A stretch of DNA of 64,000 nt from Nodosilinea nodulosa PCC 7104 (GTDB lineage Bacteria > Cyanobacteriota > Cyanobacteriia > Phormidesmidales > Phormidesmidaceae). Both the position numbers and the translations under genes were made by a program. Where the stretch lies: NCBI RefSeq assembly GCF_000309385.1, contig NZ_JH976537.1, forward strand, positions 1,966,029 through 2,030,028, in the 5' to 3' direction. Below, piece by piece: positions 33,663 to 50,146 of this stretch (position 1 is the first letter of the stretch; each line of letters begins with the position of its first letter). Below the pieces are notes generated by a model. The model was not told where the DNA came from. It saw nothing but the letters and a program-made list of their open reading frames with translations, and searched no databases.

Positions 33663-35216
33663 ATGGCTCACTCTTTTTCTCCGGCTCGGTTTCGTGGCTC
33701 CCTACGGCAGCTAGCTAGGCCGCTGCTTTTGCAGGGGCTGGCTCTGGCGTCTGGGTTGGCCGGTTTGGGGATATTCCCCATCGCTGGCGCGAGGCCTGCC
33801 CTGGCTCTTAACGCCTACTGCCAGGTCACCCAGGCCGATGCCCTGGCCAAGGAAAACCTGCGCAAAGCTGCCCTGGCGGGAGATGCACCCTCCCAGCAGC
33901 AGTACCAGGCGATCGTGAACCAGCACACCGAGGCGCTGCGCCAGTGCCGCAGCCGCACCTGGCCCCAGCACCAGGCCGTGTGGGTGCGCCTCTACCCCTG
34001 CGATTTGCAGCCCGGTATTTTAGATGCCCTGTTCGATCGCATCGTCAACCTGGGCTACAACGAAGTCTATGTCGAAGTGTTTTACGGCGGCCAGGTGCTG
34101 CTGCCCCAGGCCGACAACCCTACGGTGTGGCCTTCGGTGGTGCAGGCCCCCGGCTACGAACGCCGCGACCTGTTTGCCGAGGCCCTGGAGAAGGGCCGTC
34201 AGCGGGGCCTTGAAGTAGATGCCTGGATGTTTGCCCTCAACTTTGGCTATTCCTACGGCCTCCGGAGCGATCGCGAGCAGGTGCTGGCCCTCAATGGTCG
34301 CGGCCAAACCACCTTTACCTACGCCAAAACTGGCTCCTCTAGCAACCCCGATGAAGTCTTTGTAGACCCGTATAACACCCAGGCCCAGGCCGACTACAGC
34401 CGCATGCTGGGGGCGGTGCTGCGGCGGCAGCCCGACGGCGTTTTGTTTGACTATGTGCGCTATCCCCGCGGCGTTGGCGCCAACTCCGTGGCCGATAGCG
34501 TTGACGATCTGTGGATCTATGGCCAGGCCTCGCGGGATGCCTTTTTGCGGCGGGCGGTGAACCAGCAGGGGCAAGAGCTGATGCGCCGCTACATCAGCCG
34601 GGGGTATTTGACCGATCGCGACATCGAAGACGTGCGCGATTTATACCCCAACGAGGCCGAGCCGCTGTGGCAGAGCCGCACCCCGTCTCCCCCTTTGGCA
34701 GCGGGCCAGGAACCACCCAGCCCGGCCAGCCTCAGGCCCCAACTCCAGGCCGAACTGTGGCAGCTCAGCGTGGCCCACGCGGTGCAGGGAGTGGTTGACT
34801 TTGTCAAGCTAATTGGGGAGCAGGCCCAGCGCACGGGCATTCCCTCGGGGACGGTGTTTTTCCCGGAAGGGAATCAGACGGTCGGAACCGGCGGCTACGA
34901 CTCGCGCTTGCAGTACTGGGATCGCTTTCCGACCTGGATGAGCTGGCACCCGATGGCCTACGCGGTGTGCGGCAACACCGGCTGCATACTAGACGGCGTG
35001 CGGCGGGTGCAGACCATGGTGCCGAGCGGCACGTCGCCCGTCATCGCGCCGGCACTGGCGGGCATTTGGGGCCAGTCTACCTACAACCGTCCCGCCCTGG
35101 AAACCCAGATGGAAGCCCTGCGGCGGGCGGCACCGGAGATTACCTCGGTCAGTCACTTTGCCTACTCCTGGCAAGATCCGGAGTTCGATCGGGTGCGAAA
35201 GTTCTGCTCGCTCTAG
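33663..35216 (+). CDS. Family 10 glycosylhydrolase-like protein (GHL10/DUF187 type), exported
   Basis: 517 residues from the ATG at 33663 (an upstream GTG at 33642 is possible). A hydrophobic segment at about 20-50 is a signal peptide. The TIM-barrel part has AVWVRLYPCDLQPGILDALF, GYNEVYVEVFYGGQVLLP, RGLEVDAWMFALNFGY and VLFDYVRYPRGVG, typical of the putative GHL10 family. Its catalytic residues are not firmly known. Substrate may be a cell-envelope or sheath polysaccharide. Confidence 0.82.
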   Translation: MAHSFSPARFRGSLRQLARPLLLQGLALASGLAGLGIFPIAGARPALALNAYCQVTQADALAKENLRKAALAGDAPSQQQYQAIVNQHTEALRQCRSRTWPQHQAVWVRLYPCDLQPGILDALFDRIVNLGYNEVYVEVFYGGQVLLPQADNPTVWPSVVQAPGYERRDLFAEALEKGRQRGLEVDAWMFALNFGYSYGLRSDREQVLALNGRGQTTFTYAKTGSSSNPDEVFVDPYNTQAQADYSRMLGAVLRRQPDGVLFDYVRYPRGVGANSVADSVDDLWIYGQASRDAFLRRAVNQQGQELMRRYISRGYLTDRDIEDVRDLYPNEAEPLWQSRTPSPPLAAGQEPPSPASLRPQLQAELWQLSVAHAVQGVVDFVKLIGEQAQRTGIPSGTVFFPEGNQTVGTGGYDSRLQYWDRFPTWMSWHPMAYAVCGNTGCILDGVRRVQTMVPSGTSPVIAPALAGIWGQSTYNRPALETQMEALRRAAPEITSVSHFAYSWQDPEFDRVRKFCSL

Positions 35217-35348
35217 CTGTTCGGCTGGCGTGAGCGCGGCGTGAGGCTGGACGGGCGCGGCCATTTGGCGTTTGTGGGCAGGTTCTGACCTGGCTTTGGG
35301 GCGGCAACCCGTCTTTCTGTATTCTTGAGGTTTCTCTTGAACCTCTCC

Positions 35349-35378
35349 ACCTTGCCCCCCCTTGCCCCCCTTGCCCCC
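35349..35378 (+). repeat. CCTTGCCCCC tandem repeat before a start codon
   Basis: CCTTGCCCCCC occurs about three times in tandem immediately before the ATG at 35379. It replaces a normal ribosome-binding site and belongs to the same class of C-rich short repeats found throughout the ABC operon at 52-56 kb. Confidence 0.6.
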
Positions 35379-35966
35379 ATGGAAGCGATACAGCAGCAGT
35401 CTGGCCCGGTTACGCTGGTGATCTCGGAGGTCGTTGACCCCAGCCAGGTACCGGCCTACGAGGCCTGGACCAAGGGCATCAACCGCGATGCCCGGCAGTT
35501 TGCTGGGTTTTTAGGGGTCGATATTATTCGCCCCCGCGACCACGCCCACCCCGAGTACGTGGTGATTGTCAAGTTTGAAACCTACGAGCACCTGCGCTGC
35601 TGGCTGATGTCGCCCACCTACCGCGCCTGGATGGATAAATCCTACGGTCTGGTGGCGGCCCGATCGCAGCAGCACCTGCCCAACGGCCTGGAACTCTGGT
35701 TTACTCTGCCCAGGGGGCTGGCCCAGGGGCGATCGCCTGTGACCAGCCCGCCCTACTACAAGCAAGTGGTGCTGGGCGTGCTGGCGGTGTACCCGCTGAT
35801 CTTGCTGGCCAACTGGCTGCTGGGGCCGTTGCTGGTGGGGCTGCCCTCGCTGCTGGGGCTGTTTGTCTCGGTGATTTTTGTCTCGGCGTTGCTGACCTAC
35901 CCCGTGATGCCGTGGTTGAGCAAGGGGCTAGCATTTTGGCTCTATCCCAACGCCCGCCGTCGCTAG
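35379..35966 (+). CDS. Antibiotic biosynthesis monooxygenase (ABM)-domain membrane protein
   Basis: 195 residues from the ATG at 35379 (MEAIQQQSGPV). The ABM domain (about 8-105) reads VTLVISEVVDPSQVPAYEAW, GFLGVDIIRPRDHAHPEYVV and FETYEHLRCWLMSPTYRAWM. Two or three membrane helices follow (about 125-190). This ABM-plus-membrane layout is common in cyanobacteria and plants; function unassigned. The C-rich repeat directly before the ATG leaves no clear Shine-Dalgarno. An alternative start at 35325 reads into the repeat. Confidence 0.82.
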   Translation: MEAIQQQSGPVTLVISEVVDPSQVPAYEAWTKGINRDARQFAGFLGVDIIRPRDHAHPEYVVIVKFETYEHLRCWLMSPTYRAWMDKSYGLVAARSQQHLPNGLELWFTLPRGLAQGRSPVTSPPYYKQVVLGVLAVYPLILLANWLLGPLLVGLPSLLGLFVSVIFVSALLTYPVMPWLSKGLAFWLYPNARRR

Positions 35967-36061
35967 CCCGGCGAGGCTGGGGCAACTCTGGCGGCCCAAA
36001 TACCCAGGGGTTTTGATGCCTTTTAGGGGGTCAGGCATGGGGCCGATCGCGGGCGGGTCGT

Positions 36062-39000
36062 CTAGGCCTGGACCTGCTGCTCCGCGACGGGGGTGACGAC
36101 ACCGCCATCGAGGTCGATCGCCAGCAGATAGAGAATGCGGCGCAGGGGAATTTTGACGTGGGTGGAGCGCTCGACGAGTTCTTGGCCCAGGTTGTAGATG
36201 GCCTGCTCGATCAGGTAGTTGCCGAGCAGCACCTCTAGCTCCCGCTGGGTTTGGGGCAGGAAGCTGTCGCGGGCGGCGGTGGCCAGATAGGCCTTGGTAA
36301 AGGTGGTGCTGACCCAGCGGTACCAAAATTCGGCCCACTGCTGTAGCTGATGGCGTTGCTCGGGCTGGCTCATGCCGCTCTCGATTTCGTTGTCTAAGGC
36401 AATGGTGGCGGCGTAGTAAAACGATTGCAGCATGCTGGCCACGTCGCGCAGGGGCGATCGCTTCATCCGTCGCTCGCTCAAGGTGCGGGCGGGGTCGCCC
36501 TCAAAGTCAATGATAACGAAGTCTTTGCCCGTGTACAGCACCTGCTCCAGGTGGTAGTCCCCGTGGCAGCGGGTGCGCAGGGCCGTAATCTTGTGGTTCA
36601 AAACCGATTGAAACCGCTCCAAACAGGCATCGTGCTGACCTAACACAAGCGCCGCCAGCGATCGCGTGTCGGGGGGCAGCGTGCTGAGGCGGTTTTTCAG
36701 CAGCAGGAAGACATGGCCGATCAGGTTGCGGCTGTACTGGTAGATCGATCGCTGGTAGAGCGAGGTAAACGGCTCCGGCGCAAAGGCCGGGGTGTCGGCG
36801 TCGACGCTGAGGGCAATGTGCAGCTCGGCGGTGCGCTGCCCCAGCAGCTGTATGTTGGCCAGGTAGCTGTTGATTGCCTTGCAGGCCGGAATTTGGGACT
36901 CGACCGAGGGCAGCGGGCAGTAGGGCAGCGGAAAAAAGACTTCCTCAGGGGAGGCCTCGGGGTCGACCCCGGTCGCCGGTTCCAGAGCCAGGGGCGAGCC
37001 AACGGGCATGGGCGCTTCGGCAATGTCCGACTGATCCATCACCACCAGGTCGAAGTAGTCGCGCAGATGGTCGATGGTGTAGTCCCAGGCGCTGCGGGTA
37101 TCGGGGATGAACTCTTGCAGCAGGCCGATCGTGATCGGTTCTGCGTCGGGGCGGTGGTAGTCCAGGGTGCCTGCGATCGAGGGAATGTGGCTGAAGTGCT
37201 GGTGCCGATCGAGAAAGCGGCGGACTTCTAAATCGGGGTGGAGCCCTTCTTCGACCTTCTGAAATAGCTTCAAAATCAGGCGGTTTTGGGGGGCAATGCT
37301 GCCGGGTTTGCCGTAGGCGATCGAGGTATTGTTGTGCAGGCCCTTGAGCAGGGTAGGCTCAAACGGCAGGCCGCCGCCGCTGCCCGCCCCAGGCTGGCCC
37401 CCGCTGGCGTCGCCCTCGATGGAGGTGCCGGGCTGGTCGCGGCTTAGCTCATCGAAGAGAGCCGTTTTGGTGGTCAACAGTTTCCCCGCCGCATTCTCGT
37501 AGATCTGGTGGCGGGCCATGCCCTCTAGCAGGGCGGTCAAAAACGCTTTGTCGGCGATCGCGTCAAACAGCACCGCTACATCGTCGCTCTGGGCCAGCTT
37601 GAGCCGGGCCACTACCGCCTGGGGCAAGTCTGCCAAAAGCTGAAGCGCCTGGTCTCCCTCGGCCATGGCCAGAAACAGCACGTAGGTCTGCGGGTCGCCC
37701 TGAATGTAGTCGACCTGTAGCTCAACCATCTGGGCGTGGCTGCTGCCGTAGGGAATGGCGATCGCCCCGACAATGTGCGCCGTTTGCACCGTGCGGGTGC
37801 GGCCCCCAAACCAGCGGTGGCTGGCCAGGTAGCGGGGCAGCAGGGTTTCTAAACTGGCGGCAAAGCTGCGGGCCTCTGCCGACTGGAGCCGGGCGAACGC
37901 CCTCTGCCAGGTGCTATCTAGCATCGGCAGTTCGGCCAGCGGCGCGGCCTCGGGCAGGGCCGCCACCTGGGGTTTGAGGGTAAACCAGTAGACGGCGTAG
38001 GCGCCAATGCTTAGGAAGTAGGGCGACTCATCGATGGGGGGAAACTCGGTGCGGCCAAAAATTTCGACGGGCATCCACCCCTTCAGCGCCGACAGCTCCA
38101 GCTCGACGGTCTGCACGAAGCGAGACAAATTCGCCACCACCAGAATTTTTTCGTCTTCGTAGGTGCGGGTAAAGGCCAGCACCTTGCGGTTTTCGGGGTG
38201 CAGAATCTGAAAGTCGCCGCTGCCCAGGGCTTGAAAGTGCTTGCGCATGGCGAGCAGGCGCTTCATGGCGTTCAGCAGCGAGGTGGGGTTGGCCCGCTGG
38301 GCCTCGACATTTACCGTGGCGTAGTGGTACTCGGCCTCGACAATCAGCGGCAAAAACAGCCGTTGGGGGCTGGCGCTGCTAAAGCCAGCATTGCGGTCGA
38401 AGTTCCACTGCATGGGGGTGCGCACCCCGTTGCGATCGCCCACGTAGACGTTGTCGCCCATGCCAATTTCGTCGCCGTAGTAGAGCACCGGGGTGCCGGG
38501 CAGCGACAGCAGCAGGCTGTTGAGCAGCTCGATCTGGCGGCGATCGTTGCCCAAGAGCGGGGCAAGCCGCCGCCGAATGCCCAAATTCACCCGCATCTCT
38601 GGGTCCTGGGCGTAGACGCGATACATGAAATCGCGGTCTTCATCGGTGACCATTTCCAGCGTCAGCTCGTCGTGGTTGCGCAAAAACAGGCCCCACTGGC
38701 AGTTGTCGGGAATGGCGGGGGTCTGCTGCAAAATATCTGCGATCGGAAAGCTGTCCTCCATGCGCAGGGCCATAAACAGGCGCGGCATCAGAGGAAAGTG
38801 AAAATTCATGTGGCACTCGTCGCCCTCGCCAAAGTAGGCGGCGGCATCCTCGGGCCACTGGTTGGCCTCGGCCAGCAGCATCCGGTTGGGGAAGTTTTCG
38901 TCTACGTGCTGGCGCAGCTGCTTCAAAAAGGCGTGGGTCTCGGGCAGGTTTTCGCAGTTGGTGCCCTCGCGCTCGTACAGGTAGGGCACCGCGTCCATGC

Positions 39001-39616
39001 GCAGCCCGTCGACCCCCATTTCCAGCCAAAAGTCCATCACGTCGAACACGGCCTGCTGTACGGCAGGGTTGTCGTAGTTCAAATCGGGCTGGTGGGAGTA
39101 GAAACGGTGCCAGAAGTAGGCGTTGGCCACCGAATCCCAGGTCCAGTTGGAGGTTTCAAAATCCTGGAAAATAATCCGCGCTTCCTGGTATTTCTCGTAG
39201 GTGTCGCTCCAGACGTAGAAATCGCGCTCGGGGCTGCCCTTGGGCGATCGCCGCGCCCGCTGAAACCACGGATGCTGGTCAGAGGTGTGGTTGACAATCA
39301 GCTCGATAATGACGCGAATGCCCCGCTGGTGAGCCGCCTGCAACAGCTCCTTAAAGTCGTCCAGCGTCCCATAGATGGGATTTACATTCATGTAGTCGGC
39401 GATGTCGTAGCCATCGTCGCGCAGCGGCGACGGAAAAAACGGCAGTAGCCAAATGGCCGTCACGCCCAGATCTTGAAGGTAGTCTAGCTTCCCGGTGAGG
39501 CCCCGAAAGTCACCAATACCATCGCCGTTGCTGTCGGCAAAAGCGCGCACGGGCACTTCGTAAATGATGGCGTTCTTAAACCACAGGGGATCATTCTTCA
39601 AAGTCAACTCGTCCAT
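36062..39616 (-). CDS. treS: Trehalose synthase / maltokinase fusion (TreS-Mak)
   Basis: 1184 residues from the ATG at 39616. The GH13 TreS domain (about 1-540) holds [20 protein letters not shown], nucleophile Asp in [10 protein letters not shown], acid/base Glu in [11 protein letters not shown] and Asp in [11 protein letters not shown]. The C-terminal maltokinase-like domain (about 560-1180) has [20 protein letters not shown] and [15 protein letters not shown], the kinase catalytic loop and metal motif. TreS interconverts maltose and trehalose; Mak makes maltose 1-phosphate, which feeds GlgE in other bacteria. GlgE is not in the window. Divergent from malQ. Confidence 0.95.
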
Positions 39617-40004
39617 TTGGCACAATATCAGCCCCTACGCTAGCGGAAATGGTTTGCTCCGTCATCTTCCCGAGGTAAGAGCGATCGCGTCGCAGCGCCG
39701 CAGGACCGCCCGCTAAAAGAGATTTTGCCGGTTCCATCAGACTCGGGGCTGTGTGCTGGCCGAATAAAACACGGTGGGCCGACAGCATCGGTTCGCTCAA
39801 CCCGGTCAGGGCACCCATCCAAGCCCTAGGGGGGATGCCACTGGCGGAGATTTTCTTTTATCAATAGCAAGGCAGATTCCGCTGATTCTCTCCACAGAGC
39901 CTATAGGAGCAGCGTTTGCCCTGCTGCGTCTTTGCCCGAACCCGCCTGACCGTGGCGGCGGAGGGGCAGGCGGCAGTTATCCTCAATCCCAGCGATTAAT
40001 TCCC
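39617..40004. other. Divergent promoter region of treS-mak and malQ
   Basis: 388 bases between the two starts. A frame continues upstream of malQ to 39774 but looks non-coding. HIP1 sites and a GGCGGCGGAGGGGCAGG purine tract at 39954 are the only notable sequences. Confidence 0.5.
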
Positions 40005-41516
40005 ATGAGTTTTCAACGTGCCAGCGGTGTTCTACTGCATCCCACCTCGCTTCCAGGCCGCTTTGGCATTGGCGATCTCGGCCAGGCCGCCTACGCCTTT
40101 ATCGATTTTTTGGCGAAAAGTGGGCAAACGCTGTGGCAGGTTTTGCCCCTGGGGCCTACGGGCTACGAGCATTCTCCCTACATCATGAACTTCAGCACCT
40201 TTGCGGGCAATCCGCTGCTGATCGACCTGGAGCAGCTTGCCGCTGAGGGGCTGCTAGAGGCCGAGGACTTAACGCCCCTAACCGACGTAGACCCAGAGCG
40301 GGTTGATTTTGAAAAGGTGATTGCCCACAAAACCCACTTTTTGCGGCGGGCCTGCGATCGCTTTTTCTCCATGCCCGAGCGGCAGGAAAACTTTCATCAA
40401 TTTTGCCAGGAGCAATCCTCTTGGCTGGATGATTTTGCCTTTTTTATGGCGCTGCTAGAGGCCAACGAAGGCAAGAGCTGGAACTTCTGGGAGCCCGCGA
40501 TCGCCCGCCGCGAACCGGAGGCGCTGCAAGCCCAGCGGGAAGCCCTAAAAGACCAGATTCAATACCACCAATTTGTGCAGTTTAAGTTCTTTGAGCAGTG
40601 GCAAAAGCTGCGCCAGTACGCCAACGACAGAAATATCAAAATCATTGGCGATATTTCTATCTATGTGTGCCACAACAGCTCCGATGTGTGGGCCGACCCG
40701 GAGATCTTTAAGCTCGATCCCAACACCTTTGAACCGGCCTACATCGCCGGGGTGCCGCCCGACTACTTCAGCGCCACCGGCCAGCTGTGGGGCAACCCGG
40801 TTTACAACTGGGAGAAAGTTGAAAAAACAGATTTTGCCTGGTGGATCAAGCGATTTCAGGTGACACTCCAGTACGTCGATATTGTGCGCGTCGACCACTT
40901 TCGCGGCTTTGAGGCCTACTGGCAGGTGCCCGCTGGCGAAGAAACTGCCATCGGTGGAGAGTGGATTGAAGCGCCCGGCGAACGGTTTTTCATTGCCCTC
41001 GAAAAAGCCCTGGGAACGCTGCCAATTTTGGCCGAAGATCTCGGCATTATCACCCCCGAAGTGGAGACCCTGCGCGATCGCTTTGACTTCCCGGGCATGC
41101 GAATTCTCATGTTTGCCTTTGGCGATGACCCCGACAACGCCTACCTGCCCCACAACTACACCCGCAACACCGTGGTTTACCCCGGCACCCATGACAACGA
41201 CACGGCGATCGGCTGGTGGCAGCAGGCCAGTGACGCAGAAAAGTGGTTTCTCGCCCGCTATGCTGGCTATAGCTCGCCCGAGGCGATCGAAGACATCAAC
41301 TGGCTGCTGATTCGCACCGCGCTGTCCTCCGTGGCCGATCTGGCGATCATTCCCTTGCAAGACCTGCTGGATTTAGACGGGCGATCGCGCATGAACGACC
41401 CCAGCCACAACGACGGCAACTGGCGCTGGCGCTACCGCAGCTCGACGCTGCTGACCCAGGCCTTGAGCGATCGCCTGCTGACCATGACTCAGCTCTACAG
41501 CCGCTCGGGGGGCTGA
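40005..41516 (+). CDS. malQ: 4-alpha-glucanotransferase (amylomaltase)
   Basis: 503 residues from the ATG at 40005 (MSFQRASGVLLHPTSLPGRF). GH77 motifs: LPGRFGIGDLG, nucleophile Asp in VDIVRVDHFRGFEAYW, acid/base Glu in LAEDLGIITPEV and stabilising Asp in GTHDNDTAIGWW. Transfers maltodextrin units during glycogen turnover, complementing the divergent TreS-Mak gene. Its last 22 bases overlap a decayed minus-strand frame. Confidence 0.97.
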   Translation: MSFQRASGVLLHPTSLPGRFGIGDLGQAAYAFIDFLAKSGQTLWQVLPLGPTGYEHSPYIMNFSTFAGNPLLIDLEQLAAEGLLEAEDLTPLTDVDPERVDFEKVIAHKTHFLRRACDRFFSMPERQENFHQFCQEQSSWLDDFAFFMALLEANEGKSWNFWEPAIARREPEALQAQREALKDQIQYHQFVQFKFFEQWQKLRQYANDRNIKIIGDISIYVCHNSSDVWADPEIFKLDPNTFEPAYIAGVPPDYFSATGQLWGNPVYNWEKVEKTDFAWWIKRFQVTLQYVDIVRVDHFRGFEAYWQVPAGEETAIGGEWIEAPGERFFIALEKALGTLPILAEDLGIITPEVETLRDRFDFPGMRILMFAFGDDPDNAYLPHNYTRNTVVYPGTHDNDTAIGWWQQASDAEKWFLARYAGYSSPEAIEDINWLLIRTALSSVADLAIIPLQDLLDLDGRSRMNDPSHNDGNWRWRYRSSTLLTQALSDRLLTMTQLYSRSGG

Positions 41517-41863
41517 GGGGGAGTGCGATCGAACCCCTGGGCGATTTCATTGAGGATGCTCTCGATAGTTGCGGCTTTGTCAACGTGGCCCACCTCGCTG
41601 AGCATTTCCGCCAAGACGAGTAAATAAGTTTTCTCGGCAATCAAATGCTCATAGTCGTCAGGGGGGCCCCAGTAACCATAAATCGGTACAAAACCTTCTG
41701 GAATAACTGTGTTTTCTATTTCACGGTCGTATTCATCTAGAGCATCGGGATAGATAACGCCAAAGCCGCCATCACTATTGCCAAAACCTTGTTGTTTGAC
41801 CGCATAAGCCGCTAGCTCAGTCAGCGATCGCCCACACCCATAGCCAGGAACGCTCGTTTTGCC
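41495..41863 (-). pseudogene. Decayed or N-terminally truncated gene of unknown family
   Basis: From just after a TGA (41864-41866) an open frame of 122 codons runs to a TAG at 41495. It has natural protein features: GCGRSLTELAAYAVKQQGFG, VIYPDALDEYDREIENTVIP, IYGYWGPPDDYEHLIAEK and LLVLAEMLSEVGHVDKAA. There is no ATG, GTG or TTG near its beginning, so the N-terminus is lost or in another frame. It belongs to the accessory region that follows. Family not recognised; immunity-type or barnase-inhibitor-like small proteins look similar, but this is a guess. Confidence 0.5.
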
Positions 41864-42170
41864 TCAGCAAGCCTAAATTCTCAGCAGAAAAAAGTAATCT
41901 ATGCTACAGTCAGGGCGTTGAGTATTTAAATTAGACTCAATTAAGGTTTGAGCTTTTCGCTACAAAGCACATAGGGTCTGGTCGCCTGAGAGAATTGCCG
42001 GATTCCACAGAGTTTATTGCACAGTTCCTTTGGCGAATGCGAAAAAATGGCGAAGCTTCAGCATGATGAAAATCATGCATTTTTTGCGTAGAAATTAAAC
42101 CTGAGAACCCCAAAGGACCTGGCCAGTCTTTCGAGGATTTTTAAGACTAATTAAAAGAGATTTTTTTTCA
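41864..42170. other. AT-rich intergenic region before the DUF1611 gene
   Basis: 307 bases without a gene, markedly richer in A and T than the DNA to the left. It contains ATGATGAAAATCATGCAT and AAAGAGATTTTTTTTCA just before the start. Probable promoter and left edge of acquired DNA. Confidence 0.45.
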
Positions 42171-43292
42171 ATGGAAATGAAAAGACAAACAGCCCTAGTT
42201 TACTGCGAAAAACAATTTGGCTTGGTAGACGGCAAAACTGCTGCAGCGTTGGTTCGACATTCTGAAATTTATACCATTGTCGGAATTATTGACAGCTCAC
42301 TAGCTGGCAAAGACGCCGGGGAAGAATTGGGGGAAGCTAGAAACGATATTCCCATATTTGCTGATCTCGGTGATGCTTTAAGCTACCTTTCAACGGTGCC
42401 AAGCTGTTATATCTATGGCAAGGCTCCCTTAGAAGCTTGTATCGCCAGCGATGAAAGGCTTTTAATTGTAGAAGCCATGGAGCACGGGATGGATATTGTC
42501 AATGGACTCCATCAGTTCTTCTCCGAAGACCAAGAGTTTGCCGATGTGGCTGTACAGCACAACGTTGAAATCAAAGACATTAGAAAATCGCCTCAGCTAA
42601 AAGACTTGCATGTTTTTACGGGGAGAATATCTGAAGTCAATGTTCCTGTCATTGCAATGCTGGGCACGGACTGCGCCTGTGGGAAAATGACCACTGCCGT
42701 AGAACTCAACAAAGCGCTCAATAAACTTGGCATTAAATCGGTATTGGTGGCCACCGGCCAAACCAGTCTGATGCAGGGCGCTATGTATGGCGTGTCGATC
42801 GATGCCCTGATTTCGCAGTTTGTAATTGGCGAAATAGAGCACGCCGTTCTTCAGGCAGTTGAGCAGGAAGATCCTGACATTATTTTAGTTGAGGGCCAAA
42901 GTGCCGTTAGCCACCCCGCGTTCATGAGTTCTCTGGGCATCTTAAAGGGAAGCATGCCCGACGGCATTATTCTTCAACACCCACCGGCTAGACGGTTCCG
43001 GTGTGATTTTCCTAATCTGGCGATGCCGAGTGTTGAGAGCGAAATTGCGCTAATTGAGGCCGTTTCTGAGGCTAGGGTAATGGCGATCGCCCTCAGCCAC
43101 GAAAACCTGACCAATGAAGATATCTTGAGCACCATAAAGACCTACGAGCAGCAGTTTCAGCTGCCAACAACGGATGTCTTGAGCTATGGCTGCAATAAAC
43201 TCGTTCAAGCCTTAGCCGACCGTTTTCCCGCGCTAAACCTCAAGATTCAGCAAACGCAGCTAGAAAAAATTCCTGTTTTGACAACGAGATAG
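42171..43292 (+). CDS. DUF1611 family P-loop-like protein
   Basis: 373 residues. An N-terminal Rossmann-like part (about 5-150) precedes a C-terminal domain with a P-loop at 165-175 (GTDCACGKMTT), VLVATGQTSLMQGAMYGVSI and IILVEGQSAVSHPAFMSSLG. The family is DUF1611; its characterised member DgcN works in D-glutamate catabolism as an N-acetyltransferase. The downstream PLP racemase (23 bases away) supports amino-acid stereochemistry as the theme. AT-richer than surrounding genes, so probably acquired. No adjacent transporter or dehydrogenase. Confidence 0.82.
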   Translation: MEMKRQTALVYCEKQFGLVDGKTAAALVRHSEIYTIVGIIDSSLAGKDAGEELGEARNDIPIFADLGDALSYLSTVPSCYIYGKAPLEACIASDERLLIVEAMEHGMDIVNGLHQFFSEDQEFADVAVQHNVEIKDIRKSPQLKDLHVFTGRISEVNVPVIAMLGTDCACGKMTTAVELNKALNKLGIKSVLVATGQTSLMQGAMYGVSIDALISQFVIGEIEHAVLQAVEQEDPDIILVEGQSAVSHPAFMSSLGILKGSMPDGIILQHPPARRFRCDFPNLAMPSVESEIALIEAVSEARVMAIALSHENLTNEDILSTIKTYEQQFQLPTTDVLSYGCNKLVQALADRFPALNLKIQQTQLEKIPVLTTR

Positions 43293-43315
43293 GCATGGCT
43301 GTCAAAGCATAGAAA

Positions 43316-44401
43316 ATGGATATTTTTCTGCCAAGGATAGAAATTTGCCTGTCAAAAATACGGGAGAATGCCAGGATTCTGTCTGAGTTGTATGGACAAA
43401 ACGGCATTTCTCTCATGGGAGTTTCCAAGGCCGTGCTCGGAGAGCCTGCCATTATCGAAGCTATGGTTCAAGGCGGAGTAAAGTACATTGCCGACTCTCG
43501 CCTTGAAAACATCCAGAAGATGAAGGCAGCTGGAATCGCAGCCCATTTTGTGCTTCTGCGCACTTCCCCAAGCCAGGCGGAGGCGATTGTTAAGGCCGTA
43601 GACATTAGCCTTAACTCGGAGATTGAAACCCTAAGAAAGCTTTCTTACCATGCAAACGCCGATGACAAAACTCATCAGGTTATTGTCATGGTGGAGATGG
43701 GCGATTTGCGCGAAGGTGTACTCCCCTGCGATCTGTCTGAGTTTATTCGAGAAGCCCTTACGCTAACGCATATCAACATTGCTGGAATTGGCTGTAACTT
43801 AGCTTGCCATGGCGGCATCAAGCCAGACCGCAAAAACATGGACAACTTGTCCGAGCAGGTCAATAGCCTTGAAAGAGAATTTCAGTTTGGCTTAGGAATT
43901 ATTTCGGGAGGTAATTCGGCAAACTATGAATGGTACAAGGCCGCCCAGGATGTCGGCAGAATTAATAATCTCCGCCTGGGTGAATCGATTCTTTTGGGCT
44001 GCGAAACCGTGCACCGAAAGGCCATTCCAGGTTTACACACCAAAGCATTTCAGCTCTTTGCCGAAGTGATTGAGTCGAAGCGGAAGCCATCCCTGCCGAT
44101 CGGCGAGATCTGCCAGGATGCTTTTGGGAGAGTGCCTACTTTTCTAGATCGAGGCGTTCACCAGCGCGCTATCCTAGCCTTGGGAAGGCAAGATGTTCTG
44201 GTGTCTGGCCTGAAGCCGAATAGCGCGCTAGACATACTAGGTGCTAGCAGTGACCACATGATTATTGATAGCGATCGCCACAATTTGCAGGTGGGAGATG
44301 AGGTGAGTTTTAATCTGGATTATGGCAGCCTTCTCACCGCCATGACCTCTCCCTTTGTTCGAAAGGAGTTTATAAACTGTAGTGCGGCGATGGCATTGTA
44401 A
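43316..44401 (+). CDS. PLP-dependent alanine/ornithine racemase-like enzyme
   Basis: 361 residues. Fold-type III racemase: the PLP-binding Lys is K38 in LMGVSKAVLGE; VKYIADSRLENIQKMKAAGI, then LRTSPSQAEAIV, HINIAGIGCNLACHGGIKPD and GIISGGNSANYEWYKAAQ carry the phosphate and pyridine contacts; LRLGESILLGCETV closes the barrel. Similar proteins are annotated as alanine/ornithine racemases. The C-terminal part (DVLVSGLKPNSALDILGASS, VGDEVSFNLDYGSLL) matches that group. Substrate unknown. Operon with the DUF1611 gene. Confidence 0.85.
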   Translation: MDIFLPRIEICLSKIRENARILSELYGQNGISLMGVSKAVLGEPAIIEAMVQGGVKYIADSRLENIQKMKAAGIAAHFVLLRTSPSQAEAIVKAVDISLNSEIETLRKLSYHANADDKTHQVIVMVEMGDLREGVLPCDLSEFIREALTLTHINIAGIGCNLACHGGIKPDRKNMDNLSEQVNSLEREFQFGLGIISGGNSANYEWYKAAQDVGRINNLRLGESILLGCETVHRKAIPGLHTKAFQLFAEVIESKRKPSLPIGEICQDAFGRVPTFLDRGVHQRAILALGRQDVLVSGLKPNSALDILGASSDHMIIDSDRHNLQVGDEVSFNLDYGSLLTAMTSPFVRKEFINCSAAMAL

Positions 44402-44430
44402 GTAAGTTTGATAATCTATAAAACGCATTT

Positions 44431-44482
44431 CGACTCCGCTCAATGCTCGATCCGTTTCTGGGCAGAGAGTTGAGCGGAGTCG
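44431..44482. repeat. 13-base inverted repeat (CGACTCCGCTCAA)
   Basis: CGACTCCGCTCAA at 44431-44443 and TTGAGCGGAGTCG at 44470-44482 form a perfect stem with a 26-base loop, downstream of the racemase gene. GC-rich compared with its surroundings and similar to interspersed repeats in cyanobacterial genomes. Confidence 0.6.
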
Positions 44483-44605
44483 TTTTGCTCCGCAACGCTA
44501 TCGCGAACACGAAGTGTCTCCCAAAGGGGAAAACCCAAAAACTCAAGCTGGGTTTAATTTGGCCCTCCTACTTAGCGCTGCCCATTAACCGCAGTACGAA
44601 TCCCC

Positions 44606-44645
44606 GATTGCTTACAGATTGCTTACAGATTGCTTACAGATTGCT
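44606..44645 (+). repeat. Tandem 11-mer GATTGCTTACA, 3.6 copies
   Basis: Three full copies and a seven-base partial copy of GATTGCTTACA. The partial copy ends exactly at the TA into which the IS630 element is inserted (44645-44646), so the IS interrupted or abuts the array. Confidence 0.85.
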
Positions 44646-45811
44646 AATATCAAGTCCGGCTAATCAACCCTAGAATGGATGATGGAGTTGCAAAACAGGT
44701 ATAACGCGAGATGGGGCGTCGACTGAAGCTAGAACCACATTTGACCATTGAGGAACTGGAACAGTGCTATAAATCGGCTAAGAGCGGGATTGAACGGGGA
44801 CATTATCAGCTGATCTGGCTGTTGCAATTGGGCAAGAGTACCGCTGAGGTCTCTGAGGTTAGCGGCTATAGCCGAGCTTGGATTTATGAAGTGGTTAGAA
44901 GCTATAACCGCGAAGGCCCGGCGGCGCTGGGTGACCAACGACAGCATAATCCAGGCCATGGGCAGGTGATTCTCGATGATGAGCGGCAAGCCTTATTGTA
45001 CCAAGCCTTGCAGGAGGAGCCGCCGGATGGCGGATTCTGGAATGGGCGCAAGGTGGCCGACTGGCTCAGTGAGCACCTAGGCCGTCCGGTTCACCGCCAA
45101 CGGGGTTGGGAGATTCTCAAGCAGATGGAGTTTTCTCTCAAGGTGCCTCGTCCCGAGCATCAGCACGCCGCTACCGAAGAGGAGCAGCGGGTGTGGGAAA
45201 AAAAATCTGCAGGCTCAACTGGAGACGATCCAAACCGCTCATCCCGACGCCGACGTTCAACTATGGGCCATGGACGAACATCGCTTGGGACTCCATCCCA
45301 TCCTGCGCCGGGTGTGGGTCGATAACTGGTTTGGGTCGCTCAGTGCTCCTGTCCACTGTCGCTATGACTGGTTTTGGCTCTATGGCTTTGTCCATCCTCG
45401 CAGCGGGCAAACCTATTGGTGGCTGTTGCCTCGGGTCAATGTCGATCTGTTTAATCGAGCCTTGGCTGATTTTGCCGAACACTTTGGCATTGGCCCCAAC
45501 CACCGAGTCGTGCTGGTCATGGATCAAGCTGGGTGGCATACCTCAGAGCAGGTGGTCGTACCGGAAGGCCTACACCTTGCTTTTCTCCCGCCTTATTCCC
45601 CGCATATGCAACCGGCAGAGCGACTCTGGCCTATTCTCAACGAAGCCTTGGCTAATCGAGTGTTTGAGACCCTCGATGACCTCCTGGAAAAAGTGGAGCG
45701 ACGCTGTGTACAACTCCTGAACCTGCCCGATTTTATCTCAGGCTTGACCCAGTTCCATTGGTGGAAGGTGTTTCAATGCTAAGTGTGGCTGATTAAGCGG
45801 ACTTGATATTA
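44645..45811 (+). mobile_element. IS630-family insertion sequence, complete
   Basis: Both ends read TAATATCAAGTCCG inward (44645-44658; reverse complement at 45798-45811) and the similarity continues for about ten more bases (TAATCA with two mismatches). The outer TA at each end is the IS630-type target duplication. Length is about 1.16 kb. The single transposase gene has all DDE residues and a frameshift site, so the element looks able to move. Confidence 0.93.
44711..45782 (+). CDS. IS630 transposase made by programmed -1 frameshift
   Basis: The first frame (44711 onward) encodes the helix-turn-helix part (MGRRLKLEPHLTIEELEQ, SGYSRAWIYEVVRSYNREGP). A run of eight A at 45198-45205 (GAA AAA AAA T) allows a -1 slip into the second frame, giving VWEKK-NLQAQLETIQ and then the DDE domain: WAMDEHRLG, VLVMDQAGWH and YSPHMQPAERLWPI, to a stop at 45782. 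The fused product is about 357 residues. The zero frame alone ends at 45325. Frameshifting at an A-run is common in IS630 relatives. Confidence 0.9.
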
Positions 45812-45846
45812 CAGAATGATTCTCCGGCAACCAATATTCACTGAAT

Positions 45847-46752
45847 CTACTCTGCCCCCGCGGCATGTAATCGATCGGCAAGCTCAGTAATCTTGTCGCC
45901 CATGGTCAGCTTTTGGCGCCAGCGAGTAGGGATTCCCAGTTCTCCGTAGTAGGCTCCGGCTACTTGACCACAGATGGCGGCGGTTGTGTCGGCATCATCG
46001 CCCAGATTGGCAGCAGCAAGAATGGCTTGTGCGTAGGTTTCTGTGGTTAGAAAACACCAGAGCGCAGCCTCTAAACTGTCGACAACGTATCCCGAACCGC
46101 GAATGTCGTCGGCTGGCTTGTTCTGATACTCCCCCCGAGCGATGGCCTGCAGGGCCGGAGATGCAGCCATCTCCAGGTCATTGCCAAAAAGAATTTCTGT
46201 TTTACTGGCTCCTGAGAGGGCGCGGAACAGCATGTCCCCAAACAAACGGCTGGCATCGACACATTCGGCGGCGCCATGGGTTGTGCGAGAGCTCTCACCA
46301 CAGAAGTGCAAAACGCGATCGCGATCTGAGGCATAGAACATGGGCACCGGGGCAAGCCGCATGAGGCAGCCGTTGCCAGCCGACCTGGGATGTGTGGAAC
46401 CGCTAAATGGATCGCCAGAGATTTTGTACTGAGCCAGAGCCTGCCTGACGGTATTGCCGATGTCAAAGCAGTCGCCAGTGCTGCTGAGGTAGCCGGTTTC
46501 GTGCCAATCGCAGTAGCGATTCATTTGATCGACGGCATCAAATCCACCGATTTCAATCAGGCTGGTGGCTAAGCACAGCGCCATGGATGTATCGTCGGTC
46601 CACTGGCCAGGCTTGAGGTTAAACGGCCCGCCGCCGACCATATCGACCACCGATGAAAATGAACCACGGCGACGAAATTCGACCGTTGTGCCCACGGCAT
46701 CGCCAGCGGCCAGCCCCAGTAAGCATCCTCGAAACCGTTCTGATGGATTCAT
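45847..46752 (-). CDS. ADP-ribosylglycohydrolase family protein
   Basis: 301 residues. Motifs for two Mg ions are intact: GLAAGDAVGTTVEF, GQWTDDTSMAL and the C-terminal NLGDDADTTAAICGQVAGAY. Such proteins (DraG/ARH type) remove ADP-ribose from proteins or related adducts. No ADP-ribosyltransferase is adjacent. Start MNPSERFRGCLLGL at 46752. It lies right of the IS630 element in the accessory region; its own stop is 36 bases from the IS end. Confidence 0.93.
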   Translation of the reverse strand: MNPSERFRGCLLGLAAGDAVGTTVEFRRRGSFSSVVDMVGGGPFNLKPGQWTDDTSMALCLATSLIEIGGFDAVDQMNRYCDWHETGYLSSTGDCFDIGNTVRQALAQYKISGDPFSGSTHPRSAGNGCLMRLAPVPMFYASDRDRVLHFCGESSRTTHGAAECVDASRLFGDMLFRALSGASKTEILFGNDLEMAASPALQAIARGEYQNKPADDIRGSGYVVDSLEAALWCFLTTETYAQAILAAANLGDDADTTAAICGQVAGAYYGELGIPTRWRQKLTMGDKITELADRLHAAGAE

Positions 46753-47227
46753 AGAAATTTTTTTAAGCCGGGCGTCAGCGTTATTTTGCTCGATCTCTCT
46801 GAAAAATTAAGGGCTCTCTGAAAAATTTAAGGGATGTTGGGTTAATTTACGAACGGTTCCGGCGGCTCTCTTACTTGCGTGGGCTTGAGCCTGGAGGGAT
46901 GCCCGATTGACTGACAAAACCCTAGAAACCCTTATGCTGCCGTAGGTTGGGTGAAGCGCCAGCGTAACCCAACAAAGCGATTACTGGTGTTGGGTTCTCT
47001 CCGCTGGAGACGCTACGCGAACGCTTTGCTCAACACCAACCTCCATCCGAACGTTTGTTGGTCAATCAGGGGGAGAAGCAGGCTGGGAGCTAGCTAACTC
47101 AGGCTCTGGCATACGGAAGCACTGTAGTGAGCATTACAACTCCCAGAGACAAACCCCGGCACCATCAGTGAAACGGTCTCCCGCAGCTGCACTGCTGCCC
47201 GGAACCGGCATTGGAGAGGCTGTCACC
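46753..47227. other. Repeat-rich intergenic region
   Basis: 475 bases with no gene. Holds a duplicated GGCTCTCTGAAAAATT-like unit at 46790-46830, the hairpin repeat at 46941-47040 and the start region of the response regulator. An in-frame extension of that regulator to 47168 is unlikely to be translated. Confidence 0.5.
46941..47040. repeat. Interspersed hairpin repeat of cyanobacterial type
   Basis: GTTGGGT (46946) pairs with AACCCAAC (46966), and TGGTGTTG (46985) with CAACACCA (47031). Between them is GGAGACGCTACGCGAACGCT, a sequence type scattered in many cyanobacterial genomes. Probably a non-autonomous repeat. Confidence 0.65.
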
Positions 47228-47902
47228 ATGCGAATTCTGTTGGTTGAGGACGATCATCTCCTGGCGGTGTCGCTATCGGAAGCCTTGGAAGCTCAGCGCT
47301 ACACCGTAGATGTTGCCCACGATGGTGAAATCGCCTGGCAGCAAATGAGTCTGTTGCCCTACGACCTGATGCTGATGGATGTAACGCTGCCCCAGGTGGA
47401 TGGCCTTACCCTGTGCCAGCGCATGCGATCGCACGGCTTGGCGTCCCCGGTGCTAATGCTAACGGCCCGCGATACGAGTTCCGACAAGGTGGCTGGGCTC
47501 GATGCCGGGGCAGATGCCTACATGGTTAAACCCTTTGACCTGTCTGAGCTGATTGCCCAAATTCGCGCCCTGCTGCGGCGAGGGCACATGGCCCAACCCA
47601 CGGCTTTACAGTGGGAAGCCCTGCGGCTGAACCCCAGCACCTACGAGGTGCTGTATCAAAATAATCCTATCTGTCTAACGCCGAAGGAGTTTGCCATTCT
47701 GGAGCTGCTGCTGCGCCACGGCCGCCGAGTGCTGAGTCGCCACTTTATTCTAGAGTCGATCTGGCACCTGGAAGATCCTCCGGGTGAGGAAACGGTTAAG
47801 GCCCACCTGAAGGCTCTGCGGCAGAAGCTCCGCAAAGCCGGGGCTCCTCGCAACTTCATTGAAACCATCCACGGCTTAGGCTATCGCCTGATGCCCTGCT
47901 GA
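47228..47902 (+). CDS. OmpR/PhoB-family response regulator
   Basis: 224 residues from the ATG at 47228 (MRILLVEDDHLLAVSLSEAL). Receiver: acidic pair D8/D9, phosphorylation site D51 in LMLMDVTLPQVDG, K101 in MVKPFDLSEL. Winged-helix effector: LTPKEFAILELLLRHGRRVL and FIETIHGLGYRLM. Ends 21 bases before the convergent stop of a CHASE-domain kinase, its probable partner. No other kinase lies near. Confidence 0.93.
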   Translation: MRILLVEDDHLLAVSLSEALEAQRYTVDVAHDGEIAWQQMSLLPYDLMLMDVTLPQVDGLTLCQRMRSHGLASPVLMLTARDTSSDKVAGLDAGADAYMVKPFDLSELIAQIRALLRRGHMAQPTALQWEALRLNPSTYEVLYQNNPICLTPKEFAILELLLRHGRRVLSRHFILESIWHLEDPPGEETVKAHLKALRQKLRKAGAPRNFIETIHGLGYRLMPC

Positions 47903-47923
47903 GGCTTGCCCCCAGCGATCGCA

Positions 47924-49690
47924 TCAGTGGACCCTGGGCAAAACGGCTGCAATGCAGGTTCCCCCCGTGGGTTCGCTTTGAACGGTTAAATGTCCTGCCA
48001 TCAGCTCCACGCAGGTTTTTGCCACCGCTAGCCCCAGCCCCGTACCCTGCACCTGACCCACATTGTCGCCGCGATAAAACGCCTCAAAAATGTGCCCCTG
48101 GGCCGCCGTTGGAATGCCGATACCCCGATCGATGACCTGGAAGGTCCAGGTTTCTGCCGTAGCCGTGACCACCAGGCGAATGGGGCAGCCAGGGGGAGAA
48201 TACTTAACCGCATTGGACAACAGGTTGGTGAGCACCGATTGCAGCAGCTTTTTATCGAAATAGACTTTGACTTCCAAATCCTGGCCCTCTAGCAAAAGGG
48301 TTTGGCCGGGCAGAAGCTGAATTTGATCGCACACCTGACGGCAAAACAGCCCCAGTTCTAAAATTTCGGGGTTCACCTCCAGCTTGCCTGCCTCGGCCCG
48401 CGTCAGCATTAAGATATCTTCGACCAGCTGCCCCATGCGGCGAGCCGCCAGCTGAATGCGCTCCACTACAGTGGTCTGCTGCTGGGGGGTCAGGCTGTCT
48501 CGATTGGCCCCCAGGGACTGGGCGGAAACGCTGATGACGCTGAGGGGAGTCCGCAACTCGTGGGAGGCCATGGAAAACAGGCGCAGTTTTAGATCGCTGA
48601 GCTCGCGGCTGCGCCGTAGTTCCGACTGCCAGCGCGTCAGGTAAACCAGCAGGACCGTTGTGAGCAAGAGACCAATTAGCGCCGTCGCCAGCGCGGCCCA
48701 GGGGAGGGCGGGATAGCGAGGCGGTAGAAACAAAAGCTGCCACTCCCGCTGACCCAGGCTCAGGGTTGCCGTGCAGCTGAGGCCGGGGGCGCAAAGGAGG
48801 GCGGGGCTAGGGATCTCTACCCCAGACCTCCCCACCGGGAATTGCCCTTTGCCCCAGTCGGAAACCACCTGCTGTTTCTCCGCATCGTAGAAACCCAGCA
48901 GCTGCTCATCGTCTTTAGCCGTCCGATCCAAGATGTAAAAATCGACGTCGTAATCCAGATCGGTGAGCGACTCTTCCACCACATCGGCGACCCGAAATAC
49001 GCCCAGAATGTAGCCCTGGAGCCGCTGCCGCCGCTGGGTCAGGCTGATTGCAGATTGGCGATAGACCGGCAGAAACACCAAAAAGCTGTACTGGTTCTCG
49101 GCCCTGTCCTGCACCAGCTGAATCCGCCCCGTGGCGGCCATTTCCCCCGTATCCCTGGCGCGCTCCAGGGCGATGCGGCGCGTGCTGTCAGAGGCTAAGT
49201 CGTACCCTAACGCGGCCTCATTGGTCTGCCAGGGCTCTAAAAAGGTGACGGGCACGTAGCTGCTGCGCTCTGAGGCCCGCACCAGGTTGCCCGCAGCATT
49301 TCGCTCGGTGATGCCCAGCTCTGGCTGTCGGGTTCTGGTCTGGAGCCACTGCTCGTAGGCGGTGCGATCGCGCTGGCTGAGCAGGGGTGCCCACTCCAAC
49401 GCCTGAATGCCCGGATAGGTCGCGATCGCCCGCTGGACAAATCGACTAAACGCTGGCTCAGTCACAGCTTGGGCATTGGCGCTATACAAGTCGCCCACCG
49501 ACAGCAGCAGCTCGTTGTAGCGATTGGTGGTGCGCTGCAATGCGGTTGTCAGGTTGTTGATTTGCTTTTGAAACTCGCTTTGGCGAGACAGTCGCTCCCA
49601 TCGACCCACCCAGAATGTGGCCGCCAAGGTTGTGCCCAGGCCCAAAGCCAGAATAAGCCCGAAGGGAAGATGGCGGGAACGGAAAGACAT
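47924..49690 (-). CDS. CHASE-domain sensor histidine kinase
   Basis: 588 residues from the ATG at 49690 (MSFRSRHLPFGLILALGLG). TM1 at about 10-28; periplasmic CHASE domain (about 60-250: FVQRAIATYPGIQALEWAPL, GYDLASDSTRRIALERARDT, VFLPVYR); TM2 about 330-350; HisKA with FSMASHELRTPLSVISVSAQ; HATPase with N-box (NLLSNAVKYSPPGC), G1 (DRGIGIP) and G2 (GTGLGLAVA). CHASE domains bind small extracellular ligands. Unusually it faces its probable regulator tail-to-tail. Confidence 0.93.
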   Translation of the reverse strand: MSFRSRHLPFGLILALGLGTTLAATFWVGRWERLSRQSEFQKQINNLTTALQRTTNRYNELLLSVGDLYSANAQAVTEPAFSRFVQRAIATYPGIQALEWAPLLSQRDRTAYEQWLQTRTRQPELGITERNAAGNLVRASERSSYVPVTFLEPWQTNEAALGYDLASDSTRRIALERARDTGEMAATGRIQLVQDRAENQYSFLVFLPVYRQSAISLTQRRQRLQGYILGVFRVADVVEESLTDLDYDVDFYILDRTAKDDEQLLGFYDAEKQQVVSDWGKGQFPVGRSGVEIPSPALLCAPGLSCTATLSLGQREWQLLFLPPRYPALPWAALATALIGLLLTTVLLVYLTRWQSELRRSRELSDLKLRLFSMASHELRTPLSVISVSAQSLGANRDSLTPQQQTTVVERIQLAARRMGQLVEDILMLTRAEAGKLEVNPEILELGLFCRQVCDQIQLLPGQTLLLEGQDLEVKVYFDKKLLQSVLTNLLSNAVKYSPPGCPIRLVVTATAETWTFQVIDRGIGIPTAAQGHIFEAFYRGDNVGQVQGTGLGLAVAKTCVELMAGHLTVQSEPTGGTCIAAVLPRVH

Positions 49691-49747
49691 GGAAATAATC
49701 TGCAAGAATGCTTATTGTTGCATAGCTTTTGAAATTGGAAAAACGGC

Positions 49748-50146
49748 ATGACTGAAATGCTTAAACTAGCCGTCAACGGCACTTTAATGCGCGGCCTAGA
49801 GCTGAATTCTAACCTCTTAAATGTGGGGGGTAGGTTTCTCTATGAGGCGACAACGACACCCACCTATCGCCTTTGGTCCATTGGCGATGTACACCCTGCG
49901 ATGGTCCGGGTAAATGAGGGAGGTACAGCGGTAGCCCTAGAGATTTGGGCGGTGCCAGCGGCAGGCTTGATCCAGGTATTACAGCAGGAACCGCCAGGAC
50001 TCTCGATTGGCAAAGTCAAGCTGAGCAGCGGAGAAGTCGTGCTGGGGGTATTGGCAGAACCCATTTTGTGTGAGGGGCAAACGGAGATTACCAGCTACAA
50101 CGGTTGGCGGGCTTATATGGCAGAAAGAGCGATCGCCACAAAATGA
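49748..50146 (+). CDS. Allophanate-hydrolase C-terminal-like (AtzF-C) domain protein
   Basis: 132 residues. The sequence MLKLAVNGTLMRGLELNSNL, then EATTTPTYRLWSIGDVHPAM, GGTAVALEIWAVP and GEVVLGVLAEPILCEGQTEI resembles the C-terminal domain of AtzF-type allophanate hydrolase (gamma-glutamylcyclotransferase-like fold) without the amidase part. Such stand-alone proteins are often next to amide or urea transport genes. It starts 57 bases from the divergent kinase and precedes the ABC operon, so may be co-transcribed with it. Confidence 0.78.
   Translation: MTEMLKLAVNGTLMRGLELNSNLLNVGGRFLYEATTTPTYRLWSIGDVHPAMVRVNEGGTAVALEIWAVPAAGLIQVLQQEPPGLSIGKVKLSSGEVVLGVLAEPILCEGQTEITSYNGWRAYMAERAIATK

Follow-up and report, generated by a model that had tools for sequence, protein, structure and literature searches.

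The described system closest to the locus presented here is the DgcN/DgcA pathway, in which a DUF1611 protein, the D-glutamate N-acetyltransferase DgcN, likewise goes with a racemase, DgcA, of the enolase superfamily. Two other DUF1611 proteins, 2obn (Anabaena Ava_3511) and 2g0t (Thermotoga TM0796), have entries that give no function, and on the racemase side the nearest described family is Orr (NF040742). Judged by titles and abstract openings, none of the papers listed in the literature searches describes a DUF1611 gene paired with such a racemase gene, and the matches to DUF1611 itself concern, in their titles and abstract openings, other subjects.

The gene pair and its closest relatives

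The window, i.e. the whole stretch of 64,000 nucleotides that was analysed, is part of contig 1 of the 6.9-Mb genome of Nodosilinea nodulosa PCC 7104 and carries the following features:

41894..41907, no strand assigned: candidate NtcA-type palindrome GTAATCTATGCTAC (GTAN8TAC), from a pattern match and its place relative to the leader motif
41934..41961, + strand: conserved leader motif with the dyad CTCAA-N7-TTGAG, a possible operator or start region
42171..43292, + strand: DUF1611 gene, accessory copy, 373 aa, DgcN relative
43316..44401, + strand: gene of an ornithine-racemase-like PLP enzyme, 361 aa, alanine-racemase fold
44431..44482, + strand: putative terminator-like inverted repeat with 18-nt arms, then TTTT

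Against Pfam, the accessory DUF1611 protein matches DUF1611 (226.9 bits) and DUF1611_N (72.5 bits) and the racemase matches Ala_racemase_N (80 bits), all above cut-off. The nearest NCBIfam models are DgcN (NF041892) for the former, with 157.8 bits against a cut-off of 480, and Orr for the latter, with a full-length match of 388.3 bits against a cut-off of 480; since both scores are below the cut-offs, neither protein is a certified member of the respective family. Of the D-amino-acid module proposed in the earlier note, the acquired pair of DUF1611 and racemase genes stands but the step to D-glutamate is not supported by these scores.

The predicted structure of the accessory DUF1611 protein (mean pLDDT 88.0) matches 2obn (TM 0.84), 2g0t (TM 0.76) and DgcN (7xrj, TM 0.66), although the sequence identity to 2obn and 2g0t is only ~30%. 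The P-loop GTDCACGKMTT is conserved, and a profile alignment shows it to be common to the accessory protein and DgcN together with an EGQ motif, which is followed by His-Pro in the former and by His-Val in the latter. The model and the profile match to 7xrj thus give the protein the DUF1611 fold with P-loop of DgcN. The resemblance to the DgcN/DgcA pathway, a DUF1611 protein encoded beside a racemase, ends with the partner, which is a PLP enzyme here. In turn, the racemase departs from Orr in being paired with a DUF1611 protein. Its model (mean pLDDT 87.5) has alanine racemase 4y2w as best match (TM 0.73) and Lys38 is invariant in 31/31 sequences; from family knowledge and the alignment we take it to be the PLP-binding lysine, and the protein has both the alanine racemase-like PLP fold (type III) and the PLP-lysine. 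Alanine racemase uses the tyrosine of its GYADG motif as second catalytic base, and in an alignment that is weak (hhalign probability only 5%) Arg291 stands opposite this tyrosine of the host alanine racemase. The host genome encodes its own alanine racemase (407 bits), so that D-alanine for the cell wall does not depend on the pair and a role as cell-wall alanine racemase was rejected.

A second, core DUF1611 paralogue is found at C1:1.331 Mb, directly behind an enolase-superfamily gene (Pfam MR_MLE) whose best NCBIfam model is DgcA (NF042940; 198.3 bits, cut-off 400). The core paralogue itself scores 214 bits against DgcN (cut-off 480), its GC3 is 0.70 and that of the adjoining enolase is 0.69. 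Anabaena Ava_3511 resembles this core copy in kind. Given that it is the core DUF1611 and not the accessory one that adjoins a DgcA-like enolase, the window pair is of a separate kind. No DgcA-type gene of the enolase superfamily is present beside the accessory DUF1611, which in the window is surrounded by malQ, the PLP racemase gene and an insertion element; the missing DgcA partner remarked upon in the earlier note is thus indeed absent from the pair, but an enolase of the DgcA kind does occur in the genome, next to the core DUF1611.

Composition and distribution

The two genes are separated by 23 bases and differ from their surroundings in base composition, in agreement with the earlier note. 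Indeed, the GC content is 0.475 for the DUF1611 gene and 0.489 for the racemase gene, compared to a mean of 0.608, and GC3 is 0.50 and 0.53, compared to a mean of 0.731 (sd 0.08), the reference being ORFs of 250 aa or more, 140 in all, sampled from sixteen stretches of 20 kb in this genome. GC3 equal to or lower than that of the pair occurs in 3 of these 140 ORFs, and a GC content as low or lower in 8 of 576 overlapping 2,231-bp windows of the genome sample. Low GC alone is not unique to the pair, since further AT-richer stretches lie at 12-14 kb and 60-63 kb of the window. The donor may have been a lower-GC genome. Furthermore, two HIP1 octamers (GCGATCGC) are present in the pair, i.e. 0.9 per kb compared to 1.28 in a 320-kb genome sample, so that the pair is at home in cyanobacteria and long resident there.

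Relatives were collected from contigs of other genomes, and both genes were present in 37 of 40 racemase loci, a synteny that bears out the association proposed in the earlier note. The three exceptions are L088, where another gene takes the place, L089, which lies at a contig end, and L090, with 31% identity. Carriers include Cyanobacteria, Nitrospinota, Nitrosomonas and others. The pairing of DUF1611 and racemase genes is not due to chance and the two form a conserved unit. Both genes were also found in all 11 cyanobacterial loci fetched with wide flanks and in 7 of 13 plasmid regions, which were fetched out of 21 plasmid records matching the racemase. In 15 of 54 two-gene loci the spacer has the same length of exactly 23 bases, among them L055, L057 and L085 (Nitrospinota) and L067 (Nitrosomonas). 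Scores of relatives against Orr reach 411 bits (L067) and 406 bits (L081). A passage of PMC12363236 reports the racemase label LYSR in Nitrospinia, and the genes labelled there are possibly these racemase genes.

Within the phylum, 13 of the 386 genomes have a racemase match that exceeds 250 bits. At family level some DUF1611 match exists in 61 of 63 genomes, and the accessory pair is carried by 14 of the 63, each time with both genes, and by 5 of 26 congeners.

Horizontal spread and vertical inheritance

Synteny was examined by blastn (E 1e-10) with positions 35001-50000 of the window as query. On the left side of the pair, nine congeners without it have a conserved malQ gene, after which their similarity to the window ends between 41503 and 41513; malQ is conserved also in the carrier G412, whose pair sits on a different contig. 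In the stretches around the pair that were fetched from four other carriers of the genus, the pair gives the only matches, with the addition of 41888-41968 in G412.

Divergence was compared for 13 of the 14 family carriers, G423 having yielded no core-type DUF1611. Relative to the window genome, identities in 12 family genomes range from 0.53 to 0.88 for the core DUF1611, from 0.68 to 0.80 for the accessory DUF1611 and from 0.64 to 0.77 for the racemase. Three congeners display 86-88% identity in the core protein and 78-80% in the accessory copy, and G430, which belongs to another genus, is as close as these congeners in the accessory copy (78.6%). Hence, compared to the core gene, the accessory DUF1611 shows lower likeness within the genus and higher likeness between genera. 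The divergence of the DUF1611 protein is closely correlated with that of its racemase partner, with r 0.90 over 13 family genomes and 0.95 over 51 loci. Given the fact that the pair is accessory, that it stands elsewhere in congeners and that its divergence tracks the core paralogue weakly, we conclude that it has spread horizontally. The accessory distribution, GC3 and the identities support the acquired, AT-richer module of the earlier note.

Vertical inheritance within the family, with repeated losses and the low GC content as a relic, is the explanation that the earlier note had set against acquisition. The identities of the accessory and core DUF1611 proteins do correlate (Mantel r 0.48, P 0.001), so that some vertical signal is left, and the HIP1 frequency speaks for a long stay in cyanobacteria. 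Both the occurrence of the pair in only 5 of 26 congeners, at other places, and its likeness relative to the core gene, lower within the genus and higher between genera, stand against this explanation, which is thereby disfavoured and which we regard as very improbable.

A racemase tree was built from 71 of 78 rows after a length and stop filter. Copies from Nitrospinota, Nitrosomonas and one Planctomycetota fall within a group of 18 rows, five of them cyanobacterial, whose support of 87 is not starred. On this tree the label Cyano requires 4 changes, of which no more than 1 is forced by starred branches, and there are warnings on several long rows. Phage cargo was rejected, with one 30% relative among viral contigs.

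The leader and its NtcA-type site

With at most 8 substitutions allowed, the 28-base leader motif was found in 14 of the 29 non-redundant loci from cyanobacteria and in no other locus scanned. It stands 227-432 bases before the DUF1611 start. A shared regulon was rejected, a near pattern of the motif occurring once in the genome. An exact GTAN8TAC lies 40-45 bases upstream of the motif in 9 of the 14 motif-bearing loci; of the other five, two have GCA for GTA, one ends in TAA and two have none. Counting up to 450 bp upstream, GTAN8TAC is present in 15 of the 29 cyanobacterial loci, from which seven duplicate family loci had been omitted and which are related and hence not independent, compared to a mean of 3.7 and a maximum of 9 in 500 mononucleotide shuffles and to 1, 0, 0 and 4 for four altered patterns in the same loci. 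The site is absent from 25 non-cyanobacterial loci and from six picocyanobacterial loci that carry the pair; L038, whose sole site is at -482 and thus beyond 450, and L083, with none in 700 bp, belong to neither group. In the window, GTAATNTRTGYTAC at one mismatch or fewer has 1 match with 0.06 expected, and the looser GTAN8TAC has 10 with 3.7 expected, so that it is fairly common.

NtcA is encoded in the host genome (385 bits). In passages of PMC3898017, the NtcA consensus is GTAN8TAC and at activated promoters it is centred ~41.5 before the transcription start. The palindrome at 41894-41907 fits this consensus as a candidate site, and transcription would start near 41942, inside the dyad of the motif, if the NtcA distance were canonical. 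The cyanobacterial pair would apparently be under nitrogen control. Alternatively, the leader could be conserved for another regulator or through plain shared ancestry, with no nitrogen control, to which we grant a considerable chance, though well short of even. Indeed, no canonical -10 box is seen in the leader at NtcA spacing, the motif at 41934-41961 is itself conserved, also in L052 and L054 which have no exact site, and ChIP in Anabaena gave, according to passages of PMC3898017, 2,424 NtcA-bound regions, few of them at nitrogen genes. The enrichment of GTAN8TAC over shuffles and altered patterns and its absence outside cyanobacteria (0/25) argue against this alternative.

A structured RNA in the leader was rejected (alignment with 8 pairs, -1.47 kcal/mol, covariation term 0), and Rfam gave one sub-threshold snoRNA match, located within the coding region.

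Proposed function

The reading that we prefer, and to which we give somewhat less than an even chance, is that of an accessory operon whose racemase makes a D-amino acid and whose DUF1611 protein conjugates the D-form, with a switch by NtcA in cyanobacteria. PLP racemases act on free amino acids, whereas enzymes like DgcN use up the amino group. The two genes would form an accessory operon spreading horizontally, in which the PLP racemase would interconvert the L- and D-form of a free amino acid; solely on family grounds, ornithine and lysine come first as candidates. The DUF1611 protein, as a relative of DgcN, would conjugate the D-form, most likely by N-acylation, which would pull racemisation one way, so that the two enzymes in series would lead from an L-amino acid to an N-acyl-D-amino acid. 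The nitrogen regulator NtcA would switch the operon in cyanobacteria. The predicted folds, the conserved pairing, the joint spread and the enriched NtcA-type site were computed here; the acylation, the direction, the substrate and the regulation in the cell are what we infer. Points against this reading are the scores of both proteins below the NCBIfam cut-offs, Arg291 opposite the catalytic tyrosine, the lack of a canonical -10 box, the five motif-bearing loci with no exact GTAN8TAC ahead of the motif, the relatedness of the loci, the frequency of GTAN8TAC in the window and the picocyanobacterial pairs that have no site.

In L088, a metagenome bin labelled Heimdallarchaeota, a D-Ala-D-Ala-ligase-like gene stands 1 base before the racemase gene, in the place of DUF1611 (Pfam Dala_Dala_lig_C, 97.6 bits; NCBIfam, 137.9 bits, below the cut-off of 243). 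This swap points to a D-amino acid that is made and then conjugated. A wider version, rather unlikely as it stands, would be a roaming two-gene module of an Orr-like racemase and a swappable partner, either DUF1611 or an ATP-grasp relative of D-Ala-D-Ala ligase, yielding a novel product, either an N-acyl-D-amino acid or a D-dipeptide, in cyanobacteria, in the nitrifiers Nitrospina and Nitrosomonas and in further marine bacteria, under NtcA control in cyanobacteria.

The pair could also serve catabolic salvage under nitrogen shortage, the racemase turning environmental D- into L-amino acids with the DUF1611 protein in a parallel or helper role, as DgcN/DgcA do for D-glutamate. The NtcA-type site before the pair and the marine origin of many relatives would suit salvage, as would the proposal, in passages of PMC10845958, that DgcN-DgcA is the main route for D-Glu as sole nitrogen source in Shewanella. 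Yet the host already has a DgcA/DgcN-like pair, and no transporter recurs beside the pair among the best 25 families of 84 neighbours. From family knowledge, moreover, a PLP racemase, unlike the enolase DgcA, needs a free amino group and hence allows no N-acylated intermediate, and we consider salvage unlikely. Still less probable is that the DUF1611 protein is a P-loop ATP-dependent ligase acting on the D-amino acid to give a D-peptide or amide. The conserved P-loop, a weak fold similarity of the model to dethiobiotin synthetase (3mle) and the ATP-grasp ligase-like gene that replaces DUF1611 in L088 would all agree with a ligase, but DgcN, the only relative named by its activity, has the same P-loop and is titled acetyltransferase (7xrj).

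If conjugation of a D-amino acid is correct, the pair would represent a second kind of DUF1611 and racemase module beside DgcN/DgcA, common to cyanobacteria and marine nitrifiers and apparently nitrogen-controlled in the former, and a candidate for an enzymatic step by which D-amino acids are formed or removed. What goes beyond the earlier note is how widely the pair occurs, its leader with the NtcA-type site and the partner swaps. According to passages of PMC12363236 and PMC10845958, D-amino acids count among the components of recalcitrant marine organic matter.

Neighbouring genes

Besides L088, four single cases of other partners were, like it, picked by eye without a background count: an Amidohydro_3 gene overlaps the racemase end in L082, an M20 peptidase gene lies between the DUF1611 and racemase genes in L063, an M20-type amidohydrolase follows 819 bases downstream in L058, and L086 has a peptidase S51 gene upstream and a converging M20-like gene downstream. 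Of these, L082 and L063 count together with L088 in favour of the preferred reading. A function from neighbours was rejected, no general partner appearing among the 84 neighbours scanned of 153, in which Band_7 (3) and T2SS pilotin (3) are the commonest families.

At a distance of no more than a few kb from the pair, SPFH/Band_7 genes (HflK, HflC or one SPFH gene alone) are present in L035, L037, L079, L071, L044 and L047-L049, the hosts being a Ruegeria plasmid, a Vibrio plasmid, a gammaproteobacterial bin, a Gomphosphaeria bin and four picocyanobacteria, here also without a background count. Stress-type genes, which could be plasmid stress islands, stand near the pair in L092 (1-2591), L034 (372-2341), L037 (10015-11358) and L057 (8134-8583). 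Among them, Hsp20, GroEL and GroES occur in Vibrio europaeus, GroEL and GroES in Phaeobacter and NhaA in Vibrio parahaemolyticus, and PsiE directly follows the racemase in a Nitrospinaceae bin.

In the window, a short tandem repeat GATTGCTTACA at 44610-44645 separates the terminator-like repeat from the insertion element (44645-45811), which we take to be IS630-like. The element has 25-nt terminal repeats (44645-44669 and 45787-45811), and its transposase is split over the frames 44711-45325 and 45270-45782, which overlap at an eight-A run.

A protein of 167-171 aa that belongs to no Pfam family directly precedes DUF1611 in L057, L067, L073, L085 and L087 (~5250-5770), from two Nitrosomonas and three Nitrospinaceae bins, as if it had moved with the pair as a three-gene unit. 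On alphaproteobacterial plasmids, proteins of 104 and 117 aa precede the pair in L034 (5229-6722), L035, L038 and L097, in three of these four together with a 280-aa protein, and in Roseibium relatives of the 104- and 117-aa proteins are found ahead of what is left of a broken racemase.
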